Source of the DNA: a virus
Strand: one strand, 5' to 3'
Length of the DNA: 42,799 nt
Virus record (IMG/VR): IMGVR_UViG_3300030202_001972
Coordinates: 1 to 42,799 of that record
The translations under genes were made by a program, and so were the position numbers. This document shows positions 16,931-29,048 of the stretch, piece after piece. Every line of letters begins with the position of its first letter. Position 1 is the stretch's first letter. Below the pieces are notes generated by a model, which saw nothing but the letters and a program-made list of their open reading frames with translations, had not been told where the DNA came from and did not search any database.

Positions 16931-16989
16931 AATTAATGGCTTAATTTTTGGTTTCCTATGCTTTTCTCACATACTTCTTGGAGAGCTTA

Positions 16990-18516
16990 ATGAAAAATCT
17001 CGCAGAAGAATTATACAAATTATTTAAAGGAAGTGACATAGCTCACGGAACATTTATCGTTAAAGGCAGTAGAGAAAACGATGGAAAGAAACAAGGTACT
17101 GCAAAGGTTATAAGGGAACAGACCACTGTTGAAATGTGGGAAGAGCATTTAAAGGGAGGAACAGGTGTAGGGATTATACCTATTCGTAGTGATAACACAT
17201 GCCAATGGGGAGCTATAGATATAGATGAGTATAGCGTTGATCATAAAAAGCTAGTAGTTACATTAAGAGAAAATAAAATTCCTGCGGTTGTAGGAAGAAC
17301 AAAATCAGGTGGTGCTCATGTTTGGGTTTTTGTTTCTGAGCCTATAGAGGCTGAAGAAATGCAAAGGAAAATAACAGAACTGTCTGCTGCTTTAGGACAT
17401 TCAGGTAGTGAAATATTTCCCAAACAAACAAAAATATTAATAGAAAGAGGTGATACAGGTAACTTTTTAAACATGCCCTATCACTCAGGCGACAGAACAA
17501 CACGCTATGCTTTTGATGATAAAGGCGAAGCTCTTACAACAACAGAATTTTTAGAATATGTCAAGCCGTTTATCATAACACCCAATAAGTTTCGTAAACT
17601 AATAATGAGTTTTGGAAGAGAAGAGGGGTTATTAGAAGATGGTCCTCCTTGCCTACAACATCTGTGTAGTAAAGGATTTGGTGAAGGCAGTAGAAACAAC
17701 GCACTGTTCAACTTAGGTGTTTACGCCAGAATGTCAGACGAAGACAACTGGGAAGTAACTATGCAAAAATATAATATGGATTTTTTAAAACCACCTCTTT
17801 CACACAATGAGGTAGGTGTTGTTATACGACAACTTAAAAAGAAAGAGTATTTTTACAAGTGTGAAGATCAACCCATAAAACCTTTTTGTGATAAACAAGT
17901 TTGTAAAACAAGAAAACATGGAGTCGGTCCAACAGGTATTGGTAACGATATGTCTAGTTTAACTAAAATAAACGGAGACCCACCTATTTGGATTTTAAAC
18001 GTAGACGAAGAAAGGGTAGAACTTTCTACCAATGGTTTGACAAGCCAAATCCAGTTTCAAAAAGAATGTGTTTCACAAATAAATAAATTCCCTGTAGCCA
18101 TGAACCAAAGAGCATGGCAAGGAAGAATACAACTTTTGTTAGATAACCTAACTATTGTGGAAGTTCCACCAGATGCTACACTGAAAGGTGAGTTTGAAGA
18201 TTTACTACATGCCTTTTGTTGCGAAAGAGCAAAAGGAGAACAAAGAGAGGACGTGCTACAAGGTGTAGCGGTTTGGGTTGACAATAGAGTTTATTTCCAA
18301 GTAAAAGATGTAAAGAAACATTTATCTGTAAATGATTTCAACCATTATTCTTCTAATAAAATAACACTCCGATTACAAGACCTTAAAGCAGAGAAAAAAT
18401 TCTGGCGAGTAAGAGGTAAAGGTGTGCATGTGTGGTCTATGAACCAACAGTTTTTTGAAAATGAAGATGGTGAAATAGAGTTGCCTAATCTTCCAACAGA
18501 TAAGGATGTAATTTAA
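16990..18516 (+). CDS. Archaeo-eukaryotic-type (AEP) primase
   Basis: A 508-residue protein; ATG at 16990 is chosen for its GGAGAG site over the in-frame ATG at 16948. The AEP catalytic motifs are visible: WGAIDIDEY with D77 and D79, then TKSGGAHVWVF (S107-H110), then GNFLNMPYHSG. After the catalytic core comes a helical linker, a Cys cluster (YKCEDQPIKPFCDKQVCKTRKHG) that could bind zinc, and a winged-helix-like C-terminus (HLSVNDF ... KGVHVW). It would make primers for the PolA at 25799. Coupled to the UvrD-like helicase by TAATG at 18516. Confidence 0.85.
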   Translation: MKNLAEELYKLFKGSDIAHGTFIVKGSRENDGKKQGTAKVIREQTTVEMWEEHLKGGTGVGIIPIRSDNTCQWGAIDIDEYSVDHKKLVVTLRENKIPAVVGRTKSGGAHVWVFVSEPIEAEEMQRKITELSAALGHSGSEIFPKQTKILIERGDTGNFLNMPYHSGDRTTRYAFDDKGEALTTTEFLEYVKPFIITPNKFRKLIMSFGREEGLLEDGPPCLQHLCSKGFGEGSRNNALFNLGVYARMSDEDNWEVTMQKYNMDFLKPPLSHNEVGVVIRQLKKKEYFYKCEDQPIKPFCDKQVCKTRKHGVGPTGIGNDMSSLTKINGDPPIWILNVDEERVELSTNGLTSQIQFQKECVSQINKFPVAMNQRAWQGRIQLLLDNLTIVEVPPDATLKGEFEDLLHAFCCERAKGEQREDVLQGVAVWVDNRVYFQVKDVKKHLSVNDFNHYSSNKITLRLQDLKAEKKFWRVRGKGVHVWSMNQQFFENEDGEIELPNLPTDKDVI

Positions 18517-21739: not shown

Positions 21740-22050
21740 ACGAAGTTAAGGAAGAGTTTTCTGATACTACTTATCAAAAAGAGCAACAAGTAAAAGCAAT
21801 CGAAAAAAGATGTAAGAGCTTTGGTATTAAAAATCTGAGACATCTACACTCTCATTACTTAGGTATTGTAGAAGATATTGATGTTTGCACACTAAACGAC
21901 TGCCTTTGGTTAATGGGTATCAAAAGGGAAATTACAAACATAAAAGAAAAGTATGGTACTGGTTGTCCTGAAAAAATAGCTGAGATGCAGAGGGAGGAAA
22001 AGAAAAATGCAAACAGAGAAAGTAAAGGAGTTTTACAACTGGATAAATGA
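21736..22050 (+). CDS. Small protein of unknown function
   Basis: A 104-residue protein that overlaps its upstream neighbour by ATGA and its downstream neighbour by 44 bases. Visible features are a charged helix (YQKEQQVKAIEKRCKSFG), HLHSHYLGIVEDIDVCTLND and a Lys/Glu-rich end. The overlapped 3' part encodes a basic tail that may not be conserved because the ribosome site of the next gene lies inside it. Function unknown. Confidence 0.6.
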   Translation: MNEVKEEFSDTTYQKEQQVKAIEKRCKSFGIKNLRHLHSHYLGIVEDIDVCTLNDCLWLMGIKREITNIKEKYGTGCPEKIAEMQREEKKNANRESKGVLQLDK

Positions 22051-22930
22051 AAGGCATAGGATCTACTTAAAAAGGTTGTATAAAGAAACACCTCCTTGGA
22101 CAGACGATCCTATCCTGCAGTCTTATAAGTTTACCAACCCATTCAGAGAAAACGACAGAGTTACTGTGTGGATGAGGCAAAACTGGACTGACCCAAATAA
22201 AGGTAAATCTTTTAGTGAGATTATCTTTAACTGTTGTTTGTTTAGGATGATAGGAACAAGTGAGTTTGCTGACGAACATGGTTGGGTAACAGAGTGGGAT
22301 CCAACAAGAACAAAGGAAGTAATAGAAAAAAGATTAGCACAAAAAGAAAGGACTTTTACAGGTGCTTACATAATCACTAACCAAGGACTCAAAGCGAAGA
22401 AGTCTAAGGTGGTGGTAGATCATTTCCTCACACCAATCTGGGAAGACCAAAACAAACTAGAGGAGTGTGTAGTAGATCATAATTCACTCGAAAAGCTACA
22501 CAAAAAGTTTGCGGAGTACAAAGGTTGGGGAGGAGGTGGCTTTATGGCTTACGAAGTTGTAACTGATTTAAACTACACTCCTGTTTTAGAAAACGCAGTA
22601 GATAGATTCAGTTGGGCAAACGCAGGTCCTGGAGCAGTAAGAGGACTGAACAGAATAAACCAAAGACCATTAAAGCAGAGCCTTTCTAACAAACAAACAA
22701 ACTGGGAAATGTTTGAAATATTACTTTTAAAAGAAAAGTTTTGTGAAGACTATGTTCCTGTTGAACAAGTAGACATGAGAACAATAGAACACAGTTTATG
22801 TGAATGGGATAAATATGAACGAGTGCGGTTAAATCAAGGCAGACCGAGAAGTAAGTTTGCTTCTGATATGTTCAGCGAAATACCTAAAGGAGCCGTTCAG
22901 TACAGTATGGTTCCCGATACAAATAGATAA
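22007..22930 (+). CDS. 5-hmdU kinase helical / thymine-pyrophosphorylase (aGPT-Pplase)-type protein
   Basis: A 307-residue protein. The first 60 residues, FYNWINERHRIYLKRLYKE, PPWTDDPILQSYKFTNPFRE and DRVTVWMRQNW, match the signature I know from the 5-hydroxymethyl-dU DNA kinase helical and alpha-glutamyl/putrescinyl thymine pyrophosphorylase families, which act in thymine hypermodification. Further motifs are AYIITNQG, GWGGGGFMAYEVVTDL and WANAGPGAVRGLNRI. There is no fused P-loop kinase domain. In characterised systems such enzymes process pyrophosphorylated 5-hydroxymethyluracil in DNA. The neighbouring TS-like gene, glycosyltransferase and HD enzyme support this role. ATG is preceded by GGGAGGAAAAG. 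Confidence 0.75.
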   Translation: MQTEKVKEFYNWINERHRIYLKRLYKETPPWTDDPILQSYKFTNPFRENDRVTVWMRQNWTDPNKGKSFSEIIFNCCLFRMIGTSEFADEHGWVTEWDPTRTKEVIEKRLAQKERTFTGAYIITNQGLKAKKSKVVVDHFLTPIWEDQNKLEECVVDHNSLEKLHKKFAEYKGWGGGGFMAYEVVTDLNYTPVLENAVDRFSWANAGPGAVRGLNRINQRPLKQSLSNKQTNWEMFEILLLKEKFCEDYVPVEQVDMRTIEHSLCEWDKYERVRLNQGRPRSKFASDMFSEIPKGAVQYSMVPDTNR

Positions 22931-23000
22931 ACGAAGAATGGTAATTTATAATTAATGATCATATACTTAAATAACATAACAAAAAACAAAGGAGCGTAGA

Positions 23001-24257
23001 ATGAAGTTCCTAATGACTTTATTTCAAATACAAGACTATGGCGGTATTATCAACCATGCAGAAAATCTTGCTCTCGGAATGCGTGAGCTTGGACACACTG
23101 TTGATTTCCGTATATTAGTACCAAGAAAGAAAATAGTACAAAGATCTTCTGTCCCAAAAGATATAAATGAATATCGTACACTAGGCACAGGATATAAGTT
23201 TCATCAAGCTCGTGGTTGGTATGGTGTTCCAAGAACGCCTTACTTAGATAAATATCACAGAAACATATTTAAAGAACAATGCAGTAACTATGATGCAGTG
23301 TTATGGCACATACCTGTACCGACACTGAACAAAGATAATAAAGGTGTTTCGGAATGGTTGGATTTATATGATCATGGCACTAAGAACATAGCCATTGTTC
23401 ATGATGGTAACTTACCAGAGCTTTATCCTCATTTATTAAAAGTCGCTGACCAGTTTCATGCTTGTGCTTGTGTTCATGAGTCTGCTTACAGTTCAGGCAA
23501 AATATTACCTATACCAAGAAAATTAATTTTAAACCCTTTCCAAATGAAAAAGCACCCTGACTACTTACCATTCCACAGAAGAAATGGTTTTGCAGCGATA
23601 CAAGTATTCAAAGGTTGGAAGAGAGTAGATAGTTTAATAAAAGCTATTCCTTACATGACAAACCTAGAATCTAAAATGATTGGTGGGCAAGGCATAGAAT
23701 ACAGATACATGACAAGCAAAGATAAATGCAAACCTAAGTACTTTGACGAGCAAGGTGAAAAAATATGGGATGTAGCACTGAGGTACGGCATGGAACACTT
23801 AGGAACAGTTCCTAACGAGGTAGTGCTTGGACACCTTTCTAAAGTTAAATTACAAATAGATCCTAGTTACAGTAAAAAATATTCTACTTTTGGAGCACAC
23901 TTTAACAGAACAACAGTAGAGGCCATGATTCAAGGGGCAGTTCCTATGGCTACTGATTGGGGTATGAAGAACAGTAAGATTTTTACAGCAGGACAAAACT
24001 ATATTGAAGTTCCTGCAGGATGTCCATCATCGCTTTTTGCGGACATAGTGGACGATGCTTTAACTAACCAAAAACAATGGGAAGAAATAGTAGAAAACAA
24101 TTATGAGTTGTGTAAACAATTTGATATGAAAAACGTAGCTCAAAATTATGTTTCACTGGTAAAAGGTGAAACTGAGGTACAAATAGGTTTACCTGTGCAA
24201 GAAACCATACAAAAATGTAACAAAAACCTAGATTTCTTCTCTGTAGCCCCTGTGTAA
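23001..24257 (+). CDS. GT-B fold glycosyltransferase (GT4-like)
   Basis: A 418-residue protein. The N-terminal Rossmann-like start has QDYGGIINHAENLALGMREL and GHTVDFRILV (about residues 11-40), the donor-side layout of GT-B enzymes. The C-terminal lobe carries RRNGFAAIQVFKGWKRVDSL, HLGTVPNEVVLGHL and FNRTTVEAMIQGAVPMATDW (around 300-320), where the Glu and Gly-x-Pro mimic the GT4 nucleotide-sugar motif. No transmembrane segment. Sitting between thymine-modification-type genes, it may glycosylate 5-hydroxymethyluracil in phage DNA; modification of a surface or virion glycan is the alternative. ATG follows AAAGGAG. Confidence 0.75.
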   Translation: MKFLMTLFQIQDYGGIINHAENLALGMRELGHTVDFRILVPRKKIVQRSSVPKDINEYRTLGTGYKFHQARGWYGVPRTPYLDKYHRNIFKEQCSNYDAVLWHIPVPTLNKDNKGVSEWLDLYDHGTKNIAIVHDGNLPELYPHLLKVADQFHACACVHESAYSSGKILPIPRKLILNPFQMKKHPDYLPFHRRNGFAAIQVFKGWKRVDSLIKAIPYMTNLESKMIGGQGIEYRYMTSKDKCKPKYFDEQGEKIWDVALRYGMEHLGTVPNEVVLGHLSKVKLQIDPSYSKKYSTFGAHFNRTTVEAMIQGAVPMATDWGMKNSKIFTAGQNYIEVPAGCPSSLFADIVDDALTNQKQWEEIVENNYELCKQFDMKNVAQNYVSLVKGETEVQIGLPVQETIQKCNKNLDFFSVAPV

Positions 24258-24272
24258 GCTATTAGATAAGTC

Positions 24273-24300
24273 TTAAAATTTTGGGTTAGTTTGGTATAGG
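24273..24300 (+). promoter_or_regulatory. Possible promoter before the TS-like gene
   Basis: TTAAAA (24273-24278), 16-bp spacer, TATAGG (24295-24300) preceded by TGG (extended -10). It lies in the 75-bp gap upstream of the gene at 24333. Weak at both boxes. Confidence 0.3.
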
Positions 24301-24332
24301 CAAGGTACATTAGACGCCAAATGGAGGAATAC

Positions 24333-25340
24333 ATGCAGTCTTTTTTAGTAAGAAACGTAAGTGAAGCCTTGTTTAGAGGTAAACAAGCTCTATTAGAGCA
24401 AGGTAGAGAGGTAAACACCAGAAATGGTCTAGCACTAGAATTTAACACCCCAGTTGTGACGACTTATAGACTTCCAACAGAACGAGTTTTGTTTTACCCA
24501 GAGCGAGATGCTAATCCATTCTTCCACTTTATGGAATCTTTGTGGATGCTAGCAGGACGCAATGATGTAGAGTGGATTAGCCAGTTCAACGGCAGAATAA
24601 ATAATTACAGTGATGATGGTAAAACTTTCCATGGAGCTTATGGCTACAGGTGGAGAAACTGGTTTGGGCGTGACCAATTAAAAGATTGTTTAATGCGTTT
24701 GTCTACTTACGAAAACGACAGAAGAGCAGTGCTAACCATGTGGGATCCAAAAACTGATTTGGTATTAACCAATGACGGTAAAGACTACCCATGCAACACA
24801 CAGATATATTTTTGGGTAAGAAACAAAGAACTGCACATGAGCGTTGTTAATCGTAGCAATGATATGATATGGGGAGCTTATGGAGCAAATGCAGTTCACA
24901 TGTCTTTCTTACAAGAATATATGGCAGGGATGTTAAAGTTAAAGGTTGGTCAATATTACCAATACTCCAATAACCTACATGCTTATGTTGATGTATTAGA
25001 AAAACTAAGAAACATGCAACCTGATTATGAGCCTTACATAAATATATCAGATGACAATGGTGAATATGAATCACCCCCATTAATTACAAACCCCCATTCT
25101 TTTGACAAAGAACTAGAAGAATGGTTTGATGCTCCCGAGTTTTTAGAGTACACAGGGGCAGAAAAAACAGATTATGAAAACAGTTATCTTGGTACAACGG
25201 CTAGTCGTATTAAAAAAGCGTGGCGAATGTGGAAATCAAAAAAGATAAAAGTAGCAATTGAAAACGCAGAAGAAATACACGACAGAGCATGGCGTAAAGC
25301 GTGTGTTGAATGGTTGCAAAGGAGGAGCAATGAAAAGTAA
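24333..25340 (+). CDS. Thymidylate synthase family protein, probable dUMP hydroxymethylase
   Basis: A 335-residue enzyme. ATG at 24333 is preferred because GGAGG (24323-24327) is correctly spaced for it; an in-frame ATG at 24321 would put that site inside the gene. Motifs are FFHFMESLWMLAGR, FHGAYGYRWRNW, catalytic YPCNTQIYF (Cys about 154), VNRSNDMIWGAYGANAVHMS (the Asn that selects uracil in the family is present) and NLHAYVD. Phages with modified thymine use paralogs of this family to make 5-hydroxymethyl-dUMP, so with the neighbours I favour hydroxymethylase; ordinary dTMP synthesis is not excluded. It overlaps the next gene. Confidence 0.8.
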   Translation: MQSFLVRNVSEALFRGKQALLEQGREVNTRNGLALEFNTPVVTTYRLPTERVLFYPERDANPFFHFMESLWMLAGRNDVEWISQFNGRINNYSDDGKTFHGAYGYRWRNWFGRDQLKDCLMRLSTYENDRRAVLTMWDPKTDLVLTNDGKDYPCNTQIYFWVRNKELHMSVVNRSNDMIWGAYGANAVHMSFLQEYMAGMLKLKVGQYYQYSNNLHAYVDVLEKLRNMQPDYEPYINISDDNGEYESPPLITNPHSFDKELEEWFDAPEFLEYTGAEKTDYENSYLGTTASRIKKAWRMWKSKKIKVAIENAEEIHDRAWRKACVEWLQRRSNEK

Positions 25341-25650
25341 AACAATAGAGCGTGTAAAAAGTATAGTACAAGAAGATGTAAAGGCATTAGAAAAAGCAGA
25401 GCAAAGCTACGGTGACAGTTGGAAAAAGCGTGGTGGAGTTGGTGCTTATATGATGCTTGCTCGTAAATGGGACAGAATAGAAAAACAAGTAGAAGAATTA
25501 AACAGTTACGATATATTAGAGGCATTAAAAAAAGATAATAGAGAAGAGGGTATAATAGATGATATAAGGGATTTACGCAGATACCTACTTCTGGTAGAAC
25601 AACAAGCTCGTGTTGATTTATTAGAAAAGTTAAAAGTTAAAAATAAATAA
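25330..25650 (+). CDS. Nucleotide-modification-associated-type small protein
   Basis: A 106-residue, all-helical protein; ATG at 25330 follows GGAGGAG and overlaps the TS-like gene. Conserved-looking residues are SYGDSWKKRGGVGAYMMLARK and WDRIE in the first half and IIDDIRDLRRYLLLVEQ at the end. The YG-SW-RG ... K-RI ... DDI-DL-Y order resembles small proteins described as nucleotide-modification-associated (Nmad/DUF1599-like) or all-alpha NTP pyrophosphatase-like. It is consistent with the modification cluster, but I could not test the family assignment. Confidence 0.6.
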   Translation: MKSKTIERVKSIVQEDVKALEKAEQSYGDSWKKRGGVGAYMMLARKWDRIEKQVEELNSYDILEALKKDNREEGIIDDIRDLRRYLLLVEQQARVDLLEKLKVKNK

Positions 25651-25665
25651 GGAGGGAACCTTATA

Positions 25666-25830
25666 ATGAATGATCACTTAGATAAAAATGTAAATGCCGT
25701 GTGTGAATGCGGGAAAAATAAAAGAACACTAACTTTTCGTAACCTTAAAAACAGATGGCCGACTTGTGAGTGTAAACAACCGATGAGAGTAATAAAAAAT
25801 GCAGATACCTTTATTCCAACCTCCAACTGA
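25666..25830 (+). CDS. 54-residue zinc-binding-type protein
   Basis: ATG at 25666 with a GGAGGG ribosome site encodes 54 residues ending at TGA 25828-25830, overlapping the DNA polymerase start (25799) by 32 bases in another frame. Two CEC motifs at residues 13-15 and 34-36 (AVCECGKNKR and PTCECKQP) suggest a zinc knuckle. Overlapping translation before PolA could tie its expression to polymerase. Confidence 0.6.
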   Translation: MNDHLDKNVNAVCECGKNKRTLTFRNLKNRWPTCECKQPMRVIKNADTFIPTSN

Positions 25831-27688
25831 GTGGGTAATGCCTGACGGCTACCCTGATTTATCTACACAAGATGAAATAGCAATAGATTTAGAAACTAAA
25901 GACCCAAACCTTATGACAATGGGTAGTGGTTGGGCTAGAAAAGATGGACACATAATTGGAGTTGCCGTTGCTTGTAAAAAAGGAGAGTGGTACTTTCCTA
26001 TTCGCCACGAGATAGGTTCTAACCTCGATGAAAAAATGACTTTAAAATGGGTAAGAGACTTATGTAGCGTTAAGAGGAAGTATATATTCCACAATGCTCC
26101 CTACGATGTAGGTTGGTTACTGACTGAAAACATAAAAGTTCAAGGTAAGATTATAGACACAATGGTGGTCGCCCCTTTACTAGACGAGAATCGTTTTAGT
26201 TATGCCCTTAACTCTTTGTGTAGAGATTATTTACAAGACCGCAAAAGTGAAAAAGAATTACGAGAGGCTGCAGAGGCTTTTGGAGTAAATGCTAAGAGCG
26301 AGATGTATAAGCTCCCTGCTTCCCATGTAGGTGTTTATGCTGAACATGATGCTCGTTTAACTCTTAAACTCTGGCAACACTTTAAACCTTTGTTAATGAA
26401 GGAAGACATACAGGACATTTTTGAGTTAGAGCTTAGTGTATTGAAAACAATCATACCAATGAGACACAGAGGAGTACGAGTAGACCTTGACAAAGCAGAG
26501 AAAATAAAATCAGACCTTTTGTCCAGAGAGAAAAAGTTATTAGCCAGTATAAAGAAAAGAACAGGTGTGTCTGTAGAAATCTGGGCAGCAGAAAGTGTTG
26601 CTAAAGTATTTGATAAGTTAGGATTGAACTACAGTAAAACAGAAAAGACAGAAGCTCCTAGTTTTACTAAAGGGTTTTTATCTAATCACCCCCATGAAGT
26701 ACCTCAAATGATTGTACAAGCAAGAGAGTACCAAAAAGCTAGATCAACTTTTGTAGACACCATACTCAAACACCAAGTTAAAGGTCGCATACATGCGGAA
26801 CTTCACCCATTAAGAAGTGATAACGGAGGAACTGTTACAGGTAGATTTAGTTACAGTAACCCGAACTTGCAACAGATACCTGCTCGACATGGAGAAATTG
26901 GTCCTATGATTCGTAGCCTTTTCTTACCTGAAGAAGACTGTGTGTGGGGAGCTTTTGATTACAGTAGCCAAGAACCACGAATAGTTGTTCACTATGCTAA
27001 ACTGATGGGTTTTCAAGGAGCAGAAGAATTTTCACAACAGTACAACCAAGATGCTAATACAGACTTTCATCAAATGGCGGCAGACATTGTAGGAGTTCCA
27101 AGGAAACAAGCCAAAGATATTAACTTAGGATTGTTCTATGGCATGGGAACTAAAAAGCTCGCAGCAAGTCTAGGGCTTGAGTATGAAGATGCTCAAGAGT
27201 TGTTTGCTACCTACCATGACAAAGTACCCTTTGTTAGACAGTTACATGAGTATTGTTCTAACAGAGCCACAAACAAAGGAGTTATCCGTACCTTGTTAGG
27301 AAGAAGATGTAGGTTTGATAAATGGGAACCAAACAAGTATGGAGTATGGAAACCCATGACACACAAGGAAGCTTACAATGAACACGGTCCTGCGATTAAG
27401 AGAGCCTTTACCTACAAAGCTCTGAACAAATTAATTCAAGGGTCTGCGGCTGATCAAACAAAAGCTGCGATGGTCGCCCTTGCTGAAGAGAATATTTTAC
27501 CTATGATACAAGTACACGATGAGTTAGACATATCTGTGGAAAGTGAAAAACAAGCGAAGGAAATAAAAGAAATTATGGAGACTTGTGCCAAACTAGAGGT
27601 TCCCAGTGTAGTGGATGCTGAGGTTGGTGCTAACTGGGGAGAGGCAAAACAACCATTTGAGGAGTATAAAAAATGGACGAAAACTTAA
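25799..27688 (+). CDS. polA: Family A DNA polymerase (PolA) with 3'-5' exonuclease
   Basis: A 629-residue replicative polymerase. Exonuclease motifs are AIDLETKDP (D30, E32), FHNAPYD (N99, D103) and YAEHDA (Y180, D184), so proofreading should be active. Polymerase motif A is FDYSSQEPRIV (D387), motif B RKQAKDINLGLFYG (435-448), motif C QVHDELD (H573, D574). The position equivalent to E. coli Phe762 is Leu443, a natural variant with altered processivity and nucleotide discrimination reported in phages. There is no 5'-3' exonuclease domain and no DnaJ-like insertion. Translation overlaps the small zinc protein; the last codons overlap the HD gene at 27673. Confidence 0.96.
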   Translation: MQIPLFQPPTEWVMPDGYPDLSTQDEIAIDLETKDPNLMTMGSGWARKDGHIIGVAVACKKGEWYFPIRHEIGSNLDEKMTLKWVRDLCSVKRKYIFHNAPYDVGWLLTENIKVQGKIIDTMVVAPLLDENRFSYALNSLCRDYLQDRKSEKELREAAEAFGVNAKSEMYKLPASHVGVYAEHDARLTLKLWQHFKPLLMKEDIQDIFELELSVLKTIIPMRHRGVRVDLDKAEKIKSDLLSREKKLLASIKKRTGVSVEIWAAESVAKVFDKLGLNYSKTEKTEAPSFTKGFLSNHPHEVPQMIVQAREYQKARSTFVDTILKHQVKGRIHAELHPLRSDNGGTVTGRFSYSNPNLQQIPARHGEIGPMIRSLFLPEEDCVWGAFDYSSQEPRIVVHYAKLMGFQGAEEFSQQYNQDANTDFHQMAADIVGVPRKQAKDINLGLFYGMGTKKLAASLGLEYEDAQELFATYHDKVPFVRQLHEYCSNRATNKGVIRTLLGRRCRFDKWEPNKYGVWKPMTHKEAYNEHGPAIKRAFTYKALNKLIQGSAADQTKAAMVALAEENILPMIQVHDELDISVESEKQAKEIKEIMETCAKLEVPSVVDAEVGANWGEAKQPFEEYKKWTKT

Positions 27689-28239
27689 AATTATTAGACA
27701 AGAGGTTGAGGGGTGGTCATGTTCTAAGATACCACACACGACCTGAACTACTTAATGGGCAGAATGTCGCAGCTCATACGTGGAGAGCAGTGGTGATTCT
27801 ACACACTCTGTGGCCTGATGTGAGTAAAAACGCTATTCTACACATGCTTTACCATGATGTAGCTGAGTTTGAAACAGGAGATATGCCTGCGACAACTAAA
27901 TGGAAGTACGATAAACTAGCTGAGCTGATGAACAAAGTAGAAGCTGACTACGAAGACCAACTGGGCATAGGTAAAAATATGATTGAGGTTTCCAAACAAG
28001 AGAGAGCTTTATGTGATATTGCAGACAAAGTAGAACTTGTTTTGCATTGTCATCGCCTACTACAAGAGGGTAATACTCGGGCAGAAGATGTATTTATAAA
28101 AGGATACAATTACCTCCGCAGTAAATATAAAGATAATGAAGATTTCAAGATTGTAATCCCCATTCTAGAAGAGCTCACCAACACCAACCCAAGAACTGAT
28201 TCTATAAAAGACATGTTAGAGAAACTCTACTCTATGTGA
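27673..28239 (+). CDS. HD-domain 5'-deoxynucleotidase-like phosphohydrolase (YfbR/HDDC2 type)
   Basis: A 188-residue HD enzyme overlapping the polymerase stop by 16 bases. Metal ligands are H35 (NVAAHTWR), H61-D62 (LYHDVAEFETGD) and D118 (DIADKVEL); the order and the FETGDMPATTKWKY stretch fit YfbR-like dNMP phosphohydrolases. In phages with modified thymine or adenine such enzymes remove the canonical nucleotide from the pool, so hydrolysis of dTMP is a fair guess here. General nucleotide salvage is the alternative. The substrate cannot be read from the sequence. Confidence 0.8.
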   Translation: MDENLKLLDKRLRGGHVLRYHTRPELLNGQNVAAHTWRAVVILHTLWPDVSKNAILHMLYHDVAEFETGDMPATTKWKYDKLAELMNKVEADYEDQLGIGKNMIEVSKQERALCDIADKVELVLHCHRLLQEGNTRAEDVFIKGYNYLRSKYKDNEDFKIVIPILEELTNTNPRTDSIKDMLEKLYSM

Positions 28240-28559: not shown

Positions 28560-29048
28560 ATGAATATATTTTTACTTAATTGGGATATTGAAACTAACGC
28601 TCAGTGGCATTGCGACAAGCATGTTGTAAAGATGCCCCTTGAAACCACTCAAATGCTCAGCACAGTATATCATAGGTACACCAATGATGGTCCATACAAA
28701 CCTGTTCACCAAAAACACCCTTGTACTCTTTGGGCAGGAGAAACAGTACTGAATTATTTATATCTTCACAAACTAGGTATCGCCCTTTGTAAAGAGTATA
28801 CCTACCGATACAAAAGAAAACATGCTTGTGAAAAAATACTTGCATTGATTACAGAACCTCCTGTAGAGTTAAAACAAGAGGGATATACCAAACCCTATCA
28901 GGCAATGCCAGAGGAATACAAAGATGAAAACCCTATCCTTGCCTATAGAAAATATTATATAAACGACAAAGCGAGGTTTTGTAAGTGGAAAAAAAGATCA
29001 ATTCCCCCATTCATGAAGAGCACTATGGAGACAATGTCTTCCCCTTGA
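28560..29048 (+). CDS. Conserved phage protein of unknown function
   Basis: A 162-residue protein with MNIFLLNWDIETNAQWHCDKHVVKM (first 25 residues) and later LETTQMLSTVYHRY, HPCTLWAGE and YRKYYINDKARFCKWKKRS. This order (N-terminal CDKHV, LETaQmLs, HPCt-W, aYr-YY--ekarf-kW) is a family I have seen in many phages; some databases relate it to pyrimidine-dimer glycosylase-like proteins, but I cannot confirm that. The ATG at 28560 has no clear Shine-Dalgarno and sits just after the structured segment, so translation may depend on it. The stop overlaps a TTG start of the next gene. Confidence 0.7.
   Translation: MNIFLLNWDIETNAQWHCDKHVVKMPLETTQMLSTVYHRYTNDGPYKPVHQKHPCTLWAGETVLNYLYLHKLGIALCKEYTYRYKRKHACEKILALITEPPVELKQEGYTKPYQAMPEEYKDENPILAYRKYYINDKARFCKWKKRSIPPFMKSTMETMSSP

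Follow-up and report, generated by a model that had tools for sequence, protein, structure and literature searches.

Genes of the modification cluster

The window, by which we mean the whole 42,799-nucleotide stretch of the IMG/VR virus record IMGVR_UViG_3300030202_001972, carries at positions 22007-28239 a run of six genes on one strand (Table 1) which probably encode a form of phage thymidine hypermodification free of the kinase that acts on 5-hydroxymethyldeoxyuridine (5-hmdU) in DNA, with a glycosyltransferase (GT) in its place. An earlier note on this DNA had given the genes in this same order, and its readings of a protein resembling aGPT-Pplase/HMUDK_hel, a GT-B glycosyltransferase, a thymidylate synthase (TS)/dUMP-hydroxymethylase homologue with the catalytic Cys and the uracil-selecting Asn, a PolA and a YfbR-like HD enzyme agree with the profile and fold searches reported here. 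Its label of 'Nmad-like' for the small protein found no profile or pairwise support, as there was no Nmad match in the Pfam scan, no match to DUF1599 and no similarity to Nmad5 of Pseudomonas phage M6. The small protein does represent a real conserved family, the core of which (Table 1) is invariant in seven relatives.

Table 1. Genes of the modification cluster, with their positions in the window
Product	Position	Strand	Evidence
All-helical aGPT-Pplase1/HMUDK_hel protein (homologue of M6 gp55), proposed partner that recognises 5-hmdU in DNA	22007..22930	+	PF18723, AlphaFold2
GT-B glycosyltransferase, type GTA, proposed 5-hmdU DNA glycosyltransferase	23001..24257	+	AlphaFold2, Foldseek, profile
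dUMP 5-hydroxymethylase-type thymidylate synthase homologue (phage M6 family), activity predicted	24333..25340	+	PF00303, PHROG 5131
Small conserved protein of unknown function	25330..25650	+	invariant SW..RGGVGA.MMLARKWDR core
Family A DNA polymerase (PolA) with 3'-5' exonuclease domain	25799..27688	+	PF00476 8.6e-65
YfbR-like HD 5'-deoxynucleotidase, proposed nucleotide-pool enzyme	27673..28239	+	PF12917 2.2e-9

The first protein of the run (hereafter aGPT1) matched the Pfam family PF18723 (HMUDK_hel, alias aGPT-Pplase1) with E=1.3e-51 over 273 of the 307 profile residues and is about 36% identical to M6 gp55, the family being annotated as aGPT-Pplase1 in M6-like phages. Its AlphaFold2 model is all-alpha (pLDDT 88), and the fold search with aGPT1 returned no significant match, the top one being a helix-hairpin-helix 3-methyladenine DNA glycosylase at E about 0.8. 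A distant relationship to the amino acid:DNA transferase aGPT2 (PF18724) was considered and set aside, as direct profile comparison reached only E=0.01 with a probability of 4%. Besides, the aGPT1 of OR844942.1, a record named Enterococcus phage Efm 3-10, matches the Salmonella phage group at equal score, and the label of this record may be wrong.

The sequence of the adjoining GT gave by itself a weak signal (Pfam Glyco_transf_4, E=0.067). The profile of its family, GTA, matched the HepE glycosyltransferase 4xso (E=0.0012) and a divergent GTA homologue at locus L162 exceeded the Pfam cut-off for Glycos_transf_1 (3.7e-9). An AlphaFold2 model of the window GT built from 16 relatives (pLDDT 89, pTM 0.89) retrieved GT-B enzymes in Foldseek, of which HepE was the first (E=2.7e-12), and the matches included the alpha-glucosyltransferase (AGT) of phage T4 solved with 5-hydroxymethyluracil (5-hmU) DNA (7.5e-10), which reflects a common fold and is not proof of the substrate. 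Residues K207/R208 and E307 are conserved in the family. The Pfam scan found no TAGT domain (PF20691) in the window GT, which is of the GT-B type, TAGT occupying this slot only among relatives. The window GT searched directly in the cultured-phage collection found no match or close relative. A GT-B or TAGT glycosyltransferase is present in the modification cluster, as in T4-type systems.

The open reading frame of the TS homologue opens at 24321, and its homologues begin at the equivalent of 24333, in agreement with the start given earlier. The protein matched PF00303 (2.6e-23), shares PHROG 5131 with M6 gp58, to which it is 40% identical, and has as its nearest solved structure a CMP 5-hydroxymethylase and not any thymidylate synthase. 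Cys158 and Asn190 (numbered from 24321) are invariant across 11 aligned sequences, in which the cytosine-selecting Asp of the T4-type hydroxymethylase was not found, and the uracil-selecting Asn is also kept in the homologues of the cultured Escherichia coli phage EP_H11 and of MW202897, a spring-water myovirus. The gene product is thus of the type expected for the dUMP hydroxymethylase of M6 and Salmonella phage ViI, with this activity predicted from its sequence.

Kinase and glycosyltransferase in related loci

No 5-hmdU DNA kinase (PF18748) was found in the window. As the window is a 42.8-kb fragment (relatives span 58-61 kb, and the full genome of this phage is probably near 60 kb), the search was extended to 16 contigs of the GT class with lengths of 53-69 kb, where neither PF18748 nor our own kinase profile gave a match over the cut-off, and 5/5 kinase-class controls were found in the same search. 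The absence of the kinase is real for the window and for the full length of these contigs. PF18724 likewise gave none over the cut-off in the window or the 16 relatives; weak matches below it occurred in three GT-class contigs, in two of which (the L068 and L094 records) they lie within aGPT1 and hint at the possible distant relationship of the two proteins weighed above. The Tet_JBP oxygenase (PF12851) had no match in the 17 records, and no positive control for it matched either. PHROG 800 and several GenBank records give the M6 5-hmdU kinase family (L002:5686-6249) the name 'terminase small subunit', which is likely a misannotation.

Scans with aGPT1 and the kinase as seeds supplied aGPT1 loci, of which those with 2 kb or more upstream and 2.5 kb or more downstream were counted. 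Among 197 loci with such context, which were drawn from the top 80 of each scan and are not a census, 126 carried a GT only, 65 the kinase only, none both and six neither; one of these six, Shigella phage Ag3, has its kinase elsewhere in the genome. The transferase aGPT2 was found in 52 of the 65 kinase loci and in 0 of the 126 GT loci. Clustering at 90% identity left 63 GT, 49 kinase and six 'neither' clusters, none of them mixed. Fisher tests for the exclusivity were extreme but ignore kinship. On the aGPT1 tree, which was built rapidly and has weak support at many branches, so that the exact number of changes is unsure, at least about 10 changes between kinase and GT were counted, and in independent pairs on this tree kinase and GT never changed in the same direction (sign test, median p=0.016). 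The switch is, as far as these sequences tell, a repeated one. The clearest such exchange is seen between L290 and L292, two collinear loci of one metagenome with 81% DNA identity upstream and 74% downstream, which differ by a GTB(-like) gene versus aGPT2 and the kinase directly upstream of aGPT1. The earlier note had seen no P-loop 5-hmdU DNA kinase here and had a glycosyltransferase taking its place, and both points are borne out. The PF18723 protein, which it had likened to aGPT-Pplase and the helical part of the 5-hmdU kinase, is no evidence for a kinase or pyrophosphorylase step, because it is present in 126 loci without kinase.

Between aGPT1 and TS, the relatives carry different genes, namely GTA, GTB, GTC, or TAGT followed by a radical SAM/SPASM protein. 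GTB is related to GTA by profile comparison (E=4.8e-5 over 304 columns). The same comparison showed no relation between GTA and GTC, and hence the assignment of GTC as a putative glycosyltransferase draws on weak Pfam matches. The TAGT matches to PF20691 had E-values between 9.5e-16 and 1.7e-23, and this family glucosylates cytosines of phage DNA in T6-like phages (PMC13390438, PMC13216743). Loci L077 and L081 are 95.9% identical over 10.9 kb as far as the aGPT1 end, differ next in that one has GTA and the other GTB, and regain identity before TS, while L068 and L094 are about 94% identical through the end of aGPT1 and then diverge; we read both patterns as exchange at a gene boundary. The GT lies on the strand of aGPT1 in 126/126 loci, and in 61 loci it is coupled by an ATGA-type overlap of four bases.

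Several genes accompany these variants. In many relatives TAGT (or GTC) is immediately followed by a radical SAM/SPASM protein, e.g. L030:11950-12984, L085:5417-6457 and L278:8202-9200, which is distinct from the radical SAM protein of M6 and may tailor the sugar or the base. At one locus the GTB gene has an FkbM-type methyltransferase as its immediate downstream neighbour (L039:11991-12731), which makes O-methylation of the sugar possible. In MW202897 (L111, 396-2694), TAGT, a uracil-type hydroxymethylase and an HD enzyme occur together and aGPT1 was not found, which is possibly an aGPT1-free version. The cultured E. coli phages EP_H11 (L118:3992-7924) and vB_EcoM_IME392 (IME392, L200) carry GTC, PF18723, P-loop and TS genes consecutively, and PF18748 was absent from both genomes. 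A scan of viral contigs with the aGPT1 of EP_H11 as query gave no match.

Proposed pathway and its alternatives

From this gene content we infer the substrate, the sugar, the order of steps and the role of aGPT1 as follows. The TS homologue would convert dUMP to 5-hydroxymethyl-dUMP, the YfbR-like HD enzyme would help tune the nucleotide pool, and the phage PolA would incorporate hmdU, after which aGPT1 and the adjoining GT-B enzyme would attach a sugar to hmdU in the DNA at its hydroxymethyl group, with glycosylated 5-hmU as the presumed chemical product. In phages of the M6 type, hmdU in DNA is phosphorylated and the product undergoes further modification (PMC6449724); there the same aGPT1 would pair with the 5-hmdU DNA kinase. 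As the conserved residues of aGPT1 are common to its kinase-partnered and GT-partnered homologues, its role is probably shared by phosphorylation and glycosylation of hmdU, and recognition of hmdU in DNA is the simplest reading of it. The protein would thus be a shared DNA- or base-recognition partner, and the adjoining enzyme, either the kinase or an interchangeable GT, would decide the chemistry. We hold this account with good confidence.

Several points weigh against it. The glycosylated-hmdU pathway is in all its members a prediction from genes and modelled folds, and the role of aGPT1 is a proposal. The GT-B fold matches are generic, the best being GT4 enzymes of sugar and thiol metabolism and not AGT, and the reading as a glycosyltransferase is firmer for GTA and TAGT than for GTB and GTC, which were assigned mainly by profile similarity or weak Pfam matches. 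Many of the sampled loci are close relatives. EP_H11 has an extra AAA_28 P-loop protein, perhaps a nucleotide kinase, between aGPT1 and TS, with the same layout in IME392, and owing to this extra gene the two phages are an imperfect copy of the window system.

Conventional thymidine hypermodification, with a kinase that is encoded outside the fragment or has diverged beyond detection, might be suspected from the fragmentary state of the window and from Ag3, where the kinase is far from aGPT1. It is very unlikely, given that the long GT-class contigs yielded none in a search that detected every control and that no amino acid:DNA transferase rose over the cut-off either. The GT might instead modify a host surface glycan or a virion protein, its adjacency to aGPT1 being incidental and the phage DNA carrying plain 5-hmU. 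GT4-like enzymes are common in surface-glycan synthesis and phages with plain 5-hmU are known (SPO1, SP8); against this stand the mutual exclusion with the kinase, the swap at the same site, the constant strand and the filling of the slot also by TAGT, a DNA-modification family, which together render an off-DNA role improbable.

We regard as similarly improbable that the GT acts before polymerisation, on the hmdU mononucleotide or nucleoside triphosphate, so that a sugar-bearing deoxynucleoside triphosphate is incorporated and aGPT1 does another job. The position of the GT gene beside the TS, HD and PolA genes would suit such an order, and DNA binding of the GT is an assumption. Bulky sugar-bearing deoxynucleoside triphosphates are, though, poor polymerase substrates, and the TAGT and AGT relatives act on DNA. 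Moreover, aGPT1, elsewhere the partner of a DNA-acting kinase (the M6 enzyme, PMC6449724), travels with the GT. An ordinary thymidylate synthase, boosting the supply of dTMP with no modified base at all, would fit the PF00303 membership of the TS homologue and an Asn position common to true thymidylate synthases, but we see hardly any likelihood in this reading, as the closest solved relative of the homologue is the CMP hydroxymethylase, the homologue co-occurs with aGPT1 in these loci and it shares a PHROG with the enzyme of M6, a phage known to use hmdU as a building block of its DNA (PMC6449724).

If the preferred account of 5-hmdU glycosylation in DNA by the GT together with aGPT1 holds, aGPT1 cannot be solely a part of the kinase or a pyrophosphorylase, contrary to its names. 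A broader view, which we consider evenly balanced, is that PF18723 is a general module for recognition of 5-hmdU in DNA with alternative modifiers (the kinase with the amino acid:DNA transferase, or any of four GT types, in some cases with tailoring by a radical SAM protein or a methyltransferase), and that environmental phages consequently carry diverse, rapidly swapped and chemically undescribed glycosylated thymines. The exchange of GTs at a single site resembles diversification that would counter restriction by the host. New hmU DNA glycosyltransferases would be useful reagents, and the two cultured phages EP_H11 and IME392 make the claim immediately testable.

Phage lineage and comparison with known systems

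Judged by its genes, the window represents part of the genome of an ocean phage, a podovirus of the HTVC023P type (SAR11-phage-like). Its terminase is 57-63% identical to those of HTVC023P-type phages, two of them, HTVC023P and HTVC027P, having Candidatus Pelagibacter as their host, and by this relation a similar host is presumed. The replication module is present, and by synteny the missing portion probably holds mostly structural genes. Within this module, an archaeo-eukaryotic-type primase (AEP-TOTE, 1.3e-20) at 16948-18516 is followed by a UvrD-like helicase. Just past the cluster, a Pyr_excise protein (PF03013, 4.5e-5) lies at 28560-29048, a position kept in most relatives.

The window resembles M6 and ViI in its clustered TS-type hydroxymethylase, aGPT1, HD enzyme and PolA, the order being similar, and differs in having a glycosyltransferase instead of PF18748, PF18724 and the pyridoxal phosphate-dependent (PLP) or radical SAM genes of the M6 type. 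With the glucosylated 5-hydroxymethylcytosine of T-even phages it shares a hydroxymethylase combined with a GT-B fold or TAGT glycosyltransferase, T4 AGT being among the structural matches; unlike T-even phages, it has the uracil-selecting Asn and not Asp, aGPT1 is present and the modified base would be derived from thymine. The expected product type, a sugar on 5-hmU, is that of base J, the glucosyl-5-hydroxymethyluracil of kinetoplastids. Base J begins with thymine oxidised in DNA by JBP1/2, whereas hmU would arise at the nucleotide level in the window system.

In Yersinia phage YerA41, likened here by product and not by gene set, thymidine carries about 1 kDa, likely an oligosaccharide according to its authors, with masses unlike those of ordinary hexoses (PMC9023294). 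Glucosylated 5-hmU was stated in 2019 to be unreported from phage genomes (PMC6449724), and if our account is true, genes can be named for glucosylated or glycosylated 5-hmU in phage, with the pathway common in environmental viral contigs. The closest precedent is that of HTVC023P-type pelagiphages, which belong to the same viral lineage and carry the same gene pair as the window: in the portion of that study accessible to us, TS occurs with aG/PT-PPlase1, and a TAGT-like gene and a 5'-deoxynucleotidase are sometimes nearby (PMC9599517). There the genes were read as M6-like hypermodification, and the same portion does not report kinase/GT exclusivity, GT-B types or cassette swaps, which appear to be new within the accessible literature.

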